This document shows positions 35,133 to 41,040 of a DNA stretch of 51,606 nt, piece after piece. The stretch comes from Candidatus Zixiibacteriota bacterium. GTDB taxonomy: Bacteria; Zixibacteria; MSB-5A5; GN15; PGXB01. The stretch is taken from NCBI GenBank assembly GCA_026397505.1, contig JAPLUR010000053.1, forward strand, positions 1 through 51,606. Reading direction: 5' to 3'. Within the stretch, counting starts at the first letter, position 1, and each line of letters starts with the position of its first letter. The translations under genes and the position numbers were made by a program. Below the pieces are notes generated by a model. It was not told the origin of the DNA, searched no databases, and saw only the letters and a list, made by a program, of their open reading frames with translations.

Positions 35133-36755
35133 TCATTTGACATACCCGGTCGGATCGGTCAGAACTCCCTTTATTGCCGATATGGCCGCCGTCGCCGGCG
35201 AGACCAGATAAACCTCTGGCCCGCCTGAATCCGCGGCCGACCCCGCCTTACGAGCCGCCGTGGAAAGACACCTTTCTCCCGGAGCCAGAATATCCTGATA
35301 ATTTCCGGGACACGGTCCGCACCCGGGATTCATCACCAGTGCACCCGCCTCCACAAATGCCCGAATTAGGCCCTTCTTGAGCGCCTCCAGGTAAATCCCC
35401 CGCGAGCCCGGGTAGATCATCATTCTGATATCGGGATGAATCCGTTTCCCCTTGATGATATCGGCGGCAATACGCAGGTCGTCAAGACGGCCGTTGGCGC
35501 AGGAGCCCAAAATTATCTGATTGAGCGGCAGCCCTTCAAGACTCACAACATCAACCACCTTGTCAGCTTTATCCGGAAGTGCCACCTGCGGCTTGATTTG
35601 ATTGATATTAAATTCGAAAGTCGCTTCGTATAAGGCATCCTTGTCGGCCAGGGCCGGTCGATAGGGCATCTTTGTTCTCCCCAAAAAATACCGCCGTGTC
35701 GTGGAGTCGAACGGACAGATCGCCGTCACCGCCCCCAGATCCATGGAAAGGTGCGAAAGGGTGAATCTTTCGGAAATCGACATCTGCGATACGATCGAAC
35801 CATAGAATTCAATCGCCGTCCCTTCAACTCGTGATGCCGTCAGATTCCGGACAATAAAAAGGATAACATCGCGGGCATATACGCCCCGCGGTACTTTTCC
35901 GTTGATGGCAATGCTGATAGTCTGCGGAACAGTCATCGATAGCCGACCCGATGACCATAGAGCCGCCATTTCGGCCATACCTATGGTCGCGGCAAAAGCG
36001 CCGATACTGCCATAGGAAGTTGTATGAATATCGGTCCCCACCGCCAGCTGCCCCGGCAGAATGTCCCCATTTTCAACAACCAGTTGATGACAGACTCCTT
36101 CGCCAACATCATAAAAATGCTTGATATTCTGTCGCTTGACAAATTCCCGTATTTCCTTATGAGCGACCGCAGTTTCGGAGCTCGCTGCCGACGACGCTTG
36201 ATCGAGCGATATAACAATCCGGTTCGGGTTCCAGACATAACTGAGACCCGATTCCCGAAATTGCCTCAAAACAAGTGAAGCCGTGTTATGGGCAAGAGCC
36301 AGATCCGGCTCCACCGTAACCGTCTCCCCGATTTCCACCTTCTCTTGCCCCGCTCTCTCGGCAATTATCTTTTGCGCGATGGTTCGTCCGCCATAATTGA
36401 ACTTCTTCCCCACCCCGCGACTTGGCCCACCAAGATTCAATTCCAGCTGCTCCAATTTCAGGAAGGCCGGTTTATCCTTAAGATTGTATTTGCGCCGCCA
36501 GTTGTAAAAAGCCGCTTTCGAAATCCCAAGTTCCAGGCCGCAACGATAATCATCGCCGAACCGTTCCCACACCTCTTGTATTTCCGCCTGAGAAAACTTG
36601 GGAAAAGAATTCCGGGCAATATTTTTTTTGCGCCGCCAGTAGGCGACCAACTGAGCCGAGACCCCCCCCAGCCGCTCGGCTATCTTCTCGTCGGTCTTGT
36701 ATAATCTCTGAAGCTGGATCAGCTCCGCTTTGGTCGGGATCTTCCCTCGGGGCAT
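35133..36755 (-). CDS. Tandem-HTH plus aconitase/LeuC-like fusion protein with degenerate active site
   Basis: This 540-residue protein has two helix-turn-helix-like units at the N-terminus (about residues 18-45, with DEKIAERLGGVSAQLVAYW, and 68-92, with LGISKAAFYNWRRKY). The rest, from about residue 110, is an aconitase/LeuC-like large-subunit fold. The three cluster cysteines are kept: C419 in GSCANGR, C479 and C482 in NPGCGPCPG. Several catalytic positions are not: DQ (185-186) where aconitases have DH, GTDIHT (240-245) for GTDSHT, H335 and D339 where Asn and Glu are expected, and residue 507 is Ala where the second substrate Arg should be. No leuD-like small subunit lies nearby. It overlaps the HIT gene by 37 bases. 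Function as an Fe-S sensor and DNA-binding regulator is inferred. Confidence 0.85.
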   Translation of the reverse strand: MPRGKIPTKAELIQLQRLYKTDEKIAERLGGVSAQLVAYWRRKKNIARNSFPKFSQAEIQEVWERFGDDYRCGLELGISKAAFYNWRRKYNLKDKPAFLKLEQLELNLGGPSRGVGKKFNYGGRTIAQKIIAERAGQEKVEIGETVTVEPDLALAHNTASLVLRQFRESGLSYVWNPNRIVISLDQASSAASSETAVAHKEIREFVKRQNIKHFYDVGEGVCHQLVVENGDILPGQLAVGTDIHTTSYGSIGAFAATIGMAEMAALWSSGRLSMTVPQTISIAINGKVPRGVYARDVILFIVRNLTASRVEGTAIEFYGSIVSQMSISERFTLSHLSMDLGAVTAICPFDSTTRRYFLGRTKMPYRPALADKDALYEATFEFNINQIKPQVALPDKADKVVDVVSLEGLPLNQIILGSCANGRLDDLRIAADIIKGKRIHPDIRMMIYPGSRGIYLEALKKGLIRAFVEAGALVMNPGCGPCPGNYQDILAPGERCLSTAARKAGSAADSGGPEVYLVSPATAAISAIKGVLTDPTGYVK

Positions 36756-37240
36756 AGAGTATCAAACCCTTCTTTCAACATTCGGTAAATCATACCCAGG
36801 TCAAATGATACTACTCTTGTCTTGCCGATAACCGGCATGAAACTTGTATCCTCGCTCCAGCGGGGAACAATATGCATGTGCAAATGGCTCGGCACTCCAG
36901 CTCCTGAACCCTTGCCGAGGTTCATCCCCAGATTGAAGGAGTGCGGATGCAGCGTTTTCTTGATGACTTCAACCGTTTGCCGCGTGAGTTCGAAAAATTC
37001 CCGCGCCTCATCCCCGGTCAGATGATTCAATGACCCGATATGTCGATACGGTACCACCATGACATGACCCGAATTGTAAGGAAACCGATTCAGGATGACG
37101 AAGACCTTCTTCCCCCGATGAACTATCAGATCTTTGACATCGCTCTTCCGTTTGATGCGGTTACAGAAGATGCACCCTTTTTCTTTCGGACCCAGAATAT
37201 ATTCGGAACGCCACGGCGCCCAGATGAACTTTTCACTCAT
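36719..37240 (-). CDS. HIT-family hydrolase (Ap4A-phosphorylase-like)
   Basis: This protein has 173 residues from the ATG at 37240; the frame opens at 37276. It starts FIWAPWRSEYI, and GCIFCNRI provides two Cys of a zinc site. The HIT motif is SHLHMHIVPRWSED, with LILV-type NRFPYNSGHVMVVP upstream. These belong to the Ap4A-phosphorylase-like branch of the HIT superfamily, which acts on dinucleoside polyphosphates or related nucleotides. It overlaps the start of the HTH-aconitase gene by 37 bases, so the two are translated from one mRNA. The link between a nucleotide hydrolase and a putative Fe-S regulator is unexplained. Confidence 0.88.
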   Translation of the reverse strand: MSEKFIWAPWRSEYILGPKEKGCIFCNRIKRKSDVKDLIVHRGKKVFVILNRFPYNSGHVMVVPYRHIGSLNHLTGDEAREFFELTRQTVEVIKKTLHPHSFNLGMNLGKGSGAGVPSHLHMHIVPRWSEDTSFMPVIGKTRVVSFDLGMIYRMLKEGFDTLCPEGRSRPKRS

Positions 37241-37324
37241 AGGTTGGGAATATACAAAAATTCTGACACAGGACAAACGGTTTCTGAAAAATCATAAGCT
37301 AATTTTCGGCCGCCGCAGCCTGGC

Positions 37325-37384: not shown

Positions 37385-37447
37385 TTATTTCTTTTTTGCC
37401 TTTTTGGGTTTCTTCTTTTCCTTCTTAGTCGGAGTCTTTCCTGCCAT
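37385..37447 (-). CDS. Lys-rich 20-residue mini-protein
   Basis: A 21-codon frame starts at the ATG at 37447 and ends TAA at 37387-37385. The product has 20 residues, 11 of them Lys, with Thr-Pro and Lys-Pro steps (starting MAGKTPTKKEKK). GGGAGG sits 11 bases upstream, and an in-frame GTG four codons earlier could also be used. An intrinsic terminator follows. It therefore has the full parts of a gene although it is very short. Possible roles are a nucleic-acid-binding or ribosome-associated peptide; none is shown. I recognise no family. Confidence 0.6.
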   Translation of the reverse strand: MAGKTPTKKEKKKPKKAKKK

Positions 37448-40657: not shown

Positions 40658-41014
40658 TCATCTTGTACCAATACAGGTCGTTGTTATCCTTGCTTCCTTG
40701 TCAATACTCCTCGACTGAATTCGGCTGAAAGTCGGAATGTCACGATACCAGACTACAAAATTGATCGTCACCATGAGCCGCTCATATGTAGTCAATGAAC
40801 CGGTAAACTTGTCTATTGTTTCACGCGGTCCATAAGATGTGGTAGGACTGCCTCCGGTTCTCACAGTGTCGGGATTCAATCCGCCGCCAGTGGTTCTGCC
40901 GCCGCCCCCCTCCTGATCCCATGGATGTTCATCACCGGAAAATACAGCAGGAGCATTGAAGCAAATAACAACCATGACCAGGGCAATTAATGCCAGAGTC
41001 TTGGTCAACTTCAT
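40658..41014 (-). CDS. Small secreted protein of unknown function
   Basis: This protein has 118 residues from the ATG at 41014, chosen because GGAGG lies just upstream. It has a signal peptide (LALIALVMVVICFNAPAVFS) and a short mature part with a Gly-rich, Thr-Gly segment (GGGGRTTGGGLNPDT) followed by a Lys/Arg-containing hydrophobic stretch (ERLMVTINFVVWY). I do not recognise a family. It has a strong upstream promoter and a structured leader. It ends 23 bases before the sigma54 activator, so the activator may be expressed from the same transcript, which would tie its expression to this gene. Confidence 0.7.
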   Translation of the reverse strand: MKLTKTLALIALVMVVICFNAPAVFSGDEHPWDQEGGGGRTTGGGLNPDTVRTGGSPTTSYGPRETIDKFTGSLTTYERLMVTINFVVWYRDIPTFSRIQSRSIDKEARITTTCIGTR

Positions 41015-41040
41015 AATGCTTGCCTCCATAAATTACCCTT

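Follow-up and report, generated by a model that had tools for sequence, protein, structure and literature searches.

The window analysed here, 51,606 nt from a Candidatus Zixiibacteriota bacterium, carries a gene in which a helix-turn-helix (HTH) region is joined to a domain of a metabolic enzyme family, and the locus raises the question of what such a protein does. A preliminary description, made from the letters of the window, had reported HTH-like units in frame with an aconitase/LeuC-like domain and proposed that the enzyme had been turned into a sensor controlling DNA binding by its cluster or a bound ligand. We examined the protein, its relatives and its neighbours with this proposal in mind.

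Fold and active site of the window protein

The features of the locus are as follows, all on the minus strand:
35133..36755 (-), HTH-LeuC fusion gene, 540 aa, ATG start (ORF, Pfam, NCBIfam, AlphaFold2, Foldseek)
36618..36737 (-), first HTH unit, residues 7-46 (AlphaFold2 helices 9-19, 22-29 and 34-43; conservation)
36477..36599 (-), second HTH unit, residues 53-93 (AlphaFold2 helices 56-66, 69-76 and 80-89; weak Pfam HTH_23/HTH_Tnp_1)
36396..36470 (-), conserved KPxxLKLEQLEL helix and flexible linker, residues 96-120 (conservation, AlphaFold2)
35142..36386 (-), LeuC/aconitase domains 1-3 with some catalytic residues lost, residues 124-538 (profiles, alignment, Foldseek)
35499..35501 (-), C419, equivalent of cluster Cys358 (alignment)
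35310..35321 (-), C479 and C482, equivalents of cluster Cys421/Cys424 (alignment)
36719..37240 (-), HIT-family nucleotide hydrolase, upstream partner (Pfam HIT, 8.2e-16)
37249..37285 (-), predicted promoter of the HIT-fusion operon: AGAAACCRNTTG element, -10 TATATT, probable leaderless start (alignment of 11 genomes)

The reading frame is exact, with HTH helices at residues 9-43 and 56-89 and the LeuC part at residues 124-538, and the profile searches and structural model that the preliminary description had suggested agree with its account of the domains. The window protein matched Pfam Aconitase (PF00330) at 2.6e-77 and PRK00402, the NCBIfam model for the aconitase/IPM dehydratase large subunit, at 443 bits against a cut-off of 385, and it scored below the equivalog cut-offs of LeuC (187 vs 560 bits), LEU2 (361 vs 611 bits) and HacA (368 vs 550 bits). 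The HTH region retrieved a weak HTH_23 match at residues 75-91, and both HTH_23 and HTH_Tnp_1 fell below the curated cut-off. The AlphaFold2 model (mean pLDDT 85.7) comprises two three-helix units, both predicted at high confidence, a linker and a LeuC fold, and its top Foldseek match is the M. jannaschii LeuC 4kp1 (TM 0.93 on the target, 2.3 A, 39% identity in the structural alignment). The closest solved relatives of residues 124-538 are all from M. jannaschii, namely 4kp1 and 4nqy (LeuC) and 4kp2 (HacA). By sequence and fold homology, this part of the protein is a LeuC/HacA-type large subunit of the archaeal type within the aconitase superfamily.

As modelled, the head of the fusion has an HTH fold whose recognition helices are basic and conserved: that of the first unit, LVAYWRRKK, is near-invariant, as are WRRKK and WRR(K/R)Y across the tandem HTH. 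In a Foldseek search the HTH domain matched no solved DNA-binding structure significantly, the best hit being a Mos1 transposase complex at E 0.06, and the non-significant likenesses were to the Mos1 transposase, the DUX4 double homeodomain and FIS. The resemblance to HTH_Tnp_1 and Mos1, together with transposase matches of about 20 bits, is no more than suggestive of a transposase origin for the head.

To score the active site, 14 residues were followed in an alignment with 29 unfused LeuC, HacA and aconitase proteins, in which these columns are essentially invariant and a mean of 13.9/14 residues is kept (n=29); unfused archaeal LeuC (45% identity) has normal sites. The window protein keeps 8/14, which, with mitochondrial aconitase numbering in brackets, are D185 (Asp100), H223 (His147), D242 (Asp165), H244 (His167), R502 (Arg447) and the three cluster cysteines C419, C479 and C482. 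The replaced positions are His101 (now Gln186), Ser166 (Ile243), Asn258 (His335), Glu262 (Asp339), Asn446 (Ala501) and Arg452 (Ala507). The cysteines and two histidines said earlier to be kept are all present in the alignment, and the replacements given at 186, 243, 335, 339 and 507 are all real; Ala501 had been overlooked.

The large subunit of such an enzyme works with LeuD, which carries the catalytic base, the equivalent of Ser642. The preliminary description had seen no leuD nearby, and the finding can be put more strongly, as a LeuD-family profile run over the whole window genome matched only domain 4 of two full-length aconitase-type genes, with no separate LeuD anywhere. Because the catalytic His and Ser are replaced and the LeuD with the catalytic base is absent, the window protein has very likely lost catalysis. 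A conserved site, a LeuD partner and an equivalog-level score would each mark a functional IPM isomerase or homoaconitase, and it shows none of the three. The window genome also encodes, at G000:C116:9458-11374 and G000:C47 (L001), a normal aconitase in one chain (NF005558, 999 bits) and, as a gene of its own, a homoaconitase likewise in one chain (TIGR00139, 868 bits), and the fusion is therefore not needed for either reaction.

Intact and degenerate fusions across the Zixibacteria

The preliminary description had proposed surveying other genomes for the same fusion. The tandem HTH is found in single copy in 120/132 Zixibacteria genomes, several of the remaining ones being incomplete, and the fusion recurs throughout the phylum; among 254 sampled genomes outside Zixibacteria there was none, the 20-23-bit matches there proving on inspection to be noise from transposase and NtrC-type HTHs. 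When GTDB representative contigs were scanned with a peptide pattern, the fusion turned up in two records alone, L038 and L039, which correspond to the phylum genomes G082 and G077, and no HTH-LeuC fusion was found in viruses. L039 (DYGG01000006.1) belongs to a MAG titled Ignavibacterium sp., a title that looks like a misidentification of phylum member G077.

The one neighbour that the fusion has phylum-wide is the HIT gene, which lies directly upstream in about 59/66 loci and overlaps it by 4 or 37 nt in most; other neighbours vary with the family. In the window, with the HIT start set at the conserved ATG of MSEKFIWAPWR and an upstream TTG passed over, the 3' end of the HIT gene overlaps the fusion start by 37 nt. 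The HxHxH motif is intact in 54/54 HIT proteins examined. Co-translation argues for a joint function of the two products, and we infer a functional partnership between the fusion and the HIT hydrolase.

The fused proteins fall into intact and degenerate forms. In families f6, f12, f13 and f14, the HTH-fused LeuC has 14/14 site residues (10/10 proteins), and a canonical LeuD (GCGSSREQAA) lies directly downstream of the intact fusions (8/8 loci); since these families keep both the full site and an adjacent canonical LeuD, the ancestor was an enzyme. The degenerate families, f1 (that of the window), f2, f3, f15 and f16, have sites scrambled differently in almost every genome, with a mean of 5/14 residues kept (n=38) and no common new set of pocket residues. 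At least one cluster cysteine is missing in 27/38 degenerate proteins and all three in 8/38. Where a LeuD lies near a degenerate fusion, its active-site motif is scrambled as well (10/10 aligned), and within f1 such a LeuD remains in three genomes only. A further 20, more divergent members (f4, f5, f7, f9, f10 and f17-f19) have an intact HTH and a C-terminus that is LeuC-homologous at E 1e-3 to 1e-50, as scored with an unfused LeuC profile, the alignment being less certain in the most divergent ones; their site is lost, and domain 1 is eroded in most.

Conservation in the degenerate set is highest in the head, with a column entropy of 0.75-0.91 bits for the HTH region against 1.73 for the LeuC/aconitase part. 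Within the latter, the 14 catalytic columns stand at 2.71 bits compared to 1.70 for the other LeuC columns (Mann-Whitney p=1e-4), and to 1.08 for 44 non-catalytic columns that the enzymes conserve (p=1e-4) and that the degenerate proteins keep as well; structural glycines and prolines, D296, E316, R330 and D371 are fixed. For degenerate pairs with usable dS, dN/dS was 0.005-0.06 in the HTH and 0.07-0.11 in the LeuC part, whereas the two computable intact pairs gave about 0.1 in the HTH and about 0.05 in the LeuC part. This contrast implies a shift of constraint from the enzyme part to the head. The basic residues R354/R355, R452, K460/K461 and R465 are common to fused proteins, intact and degenerate, and atypical of unfused ones, and the net charge of the LeuC domain is -6.8 in unfused, +5.1 in intact fused and -0.6 in degenerate proteins, a hint that part of the LeuC surface in the fusions may face nucleic acid.

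A LeuC tree built without the catalytic columns joins all fusions in a single clade (SH-aLRT 99), inside which most degenerate forms make up a clade of their own (95), with intact forms branching below on short branches. In the combined HTH and HIT tree, by contrast, intact f6 groups with degenerate f15-f17, while intact f12-f14 fall on the opposite side; if this topology holds, catalysis was lost at least twice. Given the long branches and the conflict between the two trees, the number of losses is uncertain. Candidate intermediates are present in the form of the intact enzyme with LeuD, the decayed pair, the large subunit alone and forms with an eroded domain 1, and on balance we lean towards a phylum-defining family that passed from isomerase to bifunctional DNA-binding enzyme to pure DNA-binding pseudoenzyme, probably more than once, with living intermediates preserving the route.

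A role in leucine biosynthesis was considered and set aside, as leuA has no match in the window genome or in the f12-f14 genomes tested; for the latter, this makes IPM isomerase activity unlikely even in the intact members. Two intact fusions that were scanned fell below the LEU2 and HacA equivalog cut-offs. In ten genomes of f6 and f12-f14 (G007, G099, G101, G102 and G104-G109), no one-chain aconitase was seen, Aconitase_C occurring only in short LeuD-like frames, and intact-family genomes carry separate LeuD-type small subunits. One-chain aconitase is present in most degenerate genomes, the exceptions being G112, G115, G119 and G120. The intact HTH-LeuC/LeuD pair may thus be the aconitase of the f6 and f12-f14 genomes. 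The pattern suggests that genomes with a dedicated aconitase were the ones to lose catalysis in the fusion; with only about two independent intact lineages behind it, we do not claim this.

A probable DNA-binding regulator and its rivals

We hold it fairly probable that the fusion is a core, single-copy DNA-binding regulator of the Zixibacteria in which a retired LeuC enzyme serves as scaffold; the sequence evidence for this lies in the fusion itself, its distribution, the decay of the site, the selection on the HTH and the pairing with HIT, and from it we infer DNA binding and a regulatory output. Against this reading weigh a search that turned up no DNA target, an HTH domain with no significant counterpart among solved DNA-binding structures, and the 8/14 site residues still present in the window protein, whose loss of catalysis is judged from its residues. 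The course we propose would have begun when a two-subunit, LeuC-type hydro-lyase of the aconitase superfamily, with LeuD encoded next door, gained a tandem HTH head on its large subunit, and this ancestral fusion was probably enzyme and DNA-binding protein at once. Catalysis would then have been lost in most lineages, including that of the window, as the active sites of both subunits decayed and LeuD was often lost. These lineages would have retained the tandem HTH together with the core structure of the LeuC fold and several basic residues that it bears, the scaffold possibly serving in positioning, self-association or auxiliary DNA contact, and the regulator would form a conserved pair with the HIT nucleotide hydrolase encoded on the shared transcript.

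The sensor proposed in the preliminary description, in which a cluster or an organic acid in the old pocket switches DNA binding, fares unevenly. Its broader part stands at the level of sequence, in that the former enzyme appears as a non-catalytic partner of a DNA-binding head, with intact intermediates in four families. The window protein keeps C419, C479 and C482 along with parts of the pocket, the LeuC scaffold is held by purifying selection, and MocR regulators are a precedent for ligand sensing by an enzyme fold behind an HTH (PMC4944035, PMC6917764). Fe-S control as the general mechanism does not stand: an Fe-S sensor calls for three cysteines conserved family-wide, and the losses counted above in 27 of the 38 degenerate proteins, complete in 8, leave the cluster ligands unconserved while HTH and scaffold remain under strong purifying selection, so the cluster cannot be a family-wide signal. 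The more divergent members, without a site and mostly with an eroded domain 1, and the want of a common new pocket set that would fit one conserved ligand, also speak against sensing. The window protein itself could carry a cluster, and a bound ligand is conceivable, but overall we regard a sensor as rather unlikely.

A role in RNA binding or nucleoid structure in place of sequence-specific regulation, with an outcome like that of IRP1 or mitochondrial-nucleoid aconitase, would suit a single-copy, phylum-wide gene resembling a core factor, set in housekeeping neighbourhoods that vary apart from HIT, with conserved basic residues on its LeuC part and no operator shared across families. Aconitases of eukaryotes are reported to aid mtDNA maintenance (PMC11431987). 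However, the recognition helices of both HTH units are near-invariant, which suggests that they recognise duplex DNA. IRP1, moreover, binds RNA through its own aconitase domains, unlike a protein with an HTH head, and we think such a role unlikely. That the fusion has stayed an enzyme and changed its chemistry or substrate, in the manner of aconitase X, seems very improbable: the AcnX fold does work with a different residue set (PMC8184944) and the window protein retains its cluster cysteines and several Asp and His residues, but the fusions have no fixed replacement set, nearly every genome being different, and LeuD is missing from the window genome, while in other genomes its motif is lost. 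The loss of catalytic residues could also be taken for that of a decaying pseudogene, and the preliminary description had allowed that the HTH region might prove a translation artefact absent from homologues. Such readings are refuted, and we give them practically no weight, as the frame is open in well over 100 genomes, dN/dS of about 0.01-0.1 indicates strong purifying selection and the HTH is the most conserved part in about 120 genomes.

The regulator that we favour can be set beside several known systems. LeuC and HacA (4kp1, 4kp2) have the same fold as residues 124-538, and the intact fusions share their full site and LeuD partner; they lack the tandem HTH head, and the window protein differs further in its replaced site and in a genome without a LeuD or leuA match. 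In cytosolic aconitase/IRP1 (2b3x, 3snp), an aconitase-fold protein matched by the window model in Foldseek, the enzyme and nucleic-acid roles are alternatives; it keeps its cluster cysteines, whereas the fusion has a separate HTH head and a cluster that is not generally conserved. MocR/GabR proteins, a winged HTH fused to an aminotransferase-fold domain (PMC4944035), offer a parallel in how they work, with an HTH head and a former metabolic enzyme fold, but the enzyme fold and HTH type are unrelated, and MocR keeps a cofactor-binding role where the site residues of the fusion, and often its cluster ligands, are not conserved. AcnX (7cnq) is an aconitase fold without the classical active-site set (PMC8184944), and forms a distinct subfamily with its own defined site and 13% identity to the window protein (Foldseek); the fusions, unlike AcnX, group with LeuC/HacA and have no fixed new residue set. 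No account of a fusion of an HTH to aconitase or to LeuC came up in full-text literature searches. The recruitment of an enzyme fold behind an HTH is thus known from MocR, while the aconitase version, the loss of its site and its phylum-wide single-copy distribution appear to be new.

Conversions of enzymes to regulators are usually rebuilt from their end points, and here one orthologous gene spans the route with its head hardly changed, making what an enzyme must keep on becoming a regulator a directly testable question. Should the intact members bind DNA, they would be HTH-bearing trigger enzymes of the aconitase family. Automated annotation likely calls the fusions isopropylmalate dehydratase or homoaconitase in genomes where they probably do not act as enzymes, an error that would skew the metabolism reconstructed for this largely uncultured phylum.

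Promoter and further neighbours of the HIT-fusion pair

Autoregulation through a conserved operator was considered for the AGAAACCRNTTG element of the predicted promoter. The element has one match in the whole window genome and was not seen outside family f1, and no operator shared across families was found; confined to f1 and unique in the genome, it shows neither autoregulation nor a regulon, and is kept as a lead only.

In f1, the pair neighbours rho and a sigma-54 regulator. SbcCD-like genes, identified by eye, adjoin it in f3, f5, f16 and f17, and the pair often follows SbcC/SbcD-like genes (L153-L172; f3, f16, f17). Neighbours in other families include a TRAM-domain RNA methyltransferase, an LpxH-like phosphoesterase or MurA. 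Upstream of HIT in the window lies a Lys-rich mini-ORF (MAGKTPTKKEKKKPKKAKKK, 37385-37447 (-)) with a good ribosome-binding site, and near-identical mini-ORFs occur in most f1 relatives aligned. Further upstream, at 40658-41029 (-), the window encodes a small, secreted-looking protein with a signal-like N-terminus (...NAPAVFSGDEHPWD...), with homologues at L094:5211-5573 and elsewhere; in about seven genomes of f1, this protein (cluster C14) lies next to the TPR/sigma-54 regulator of 976 aa.
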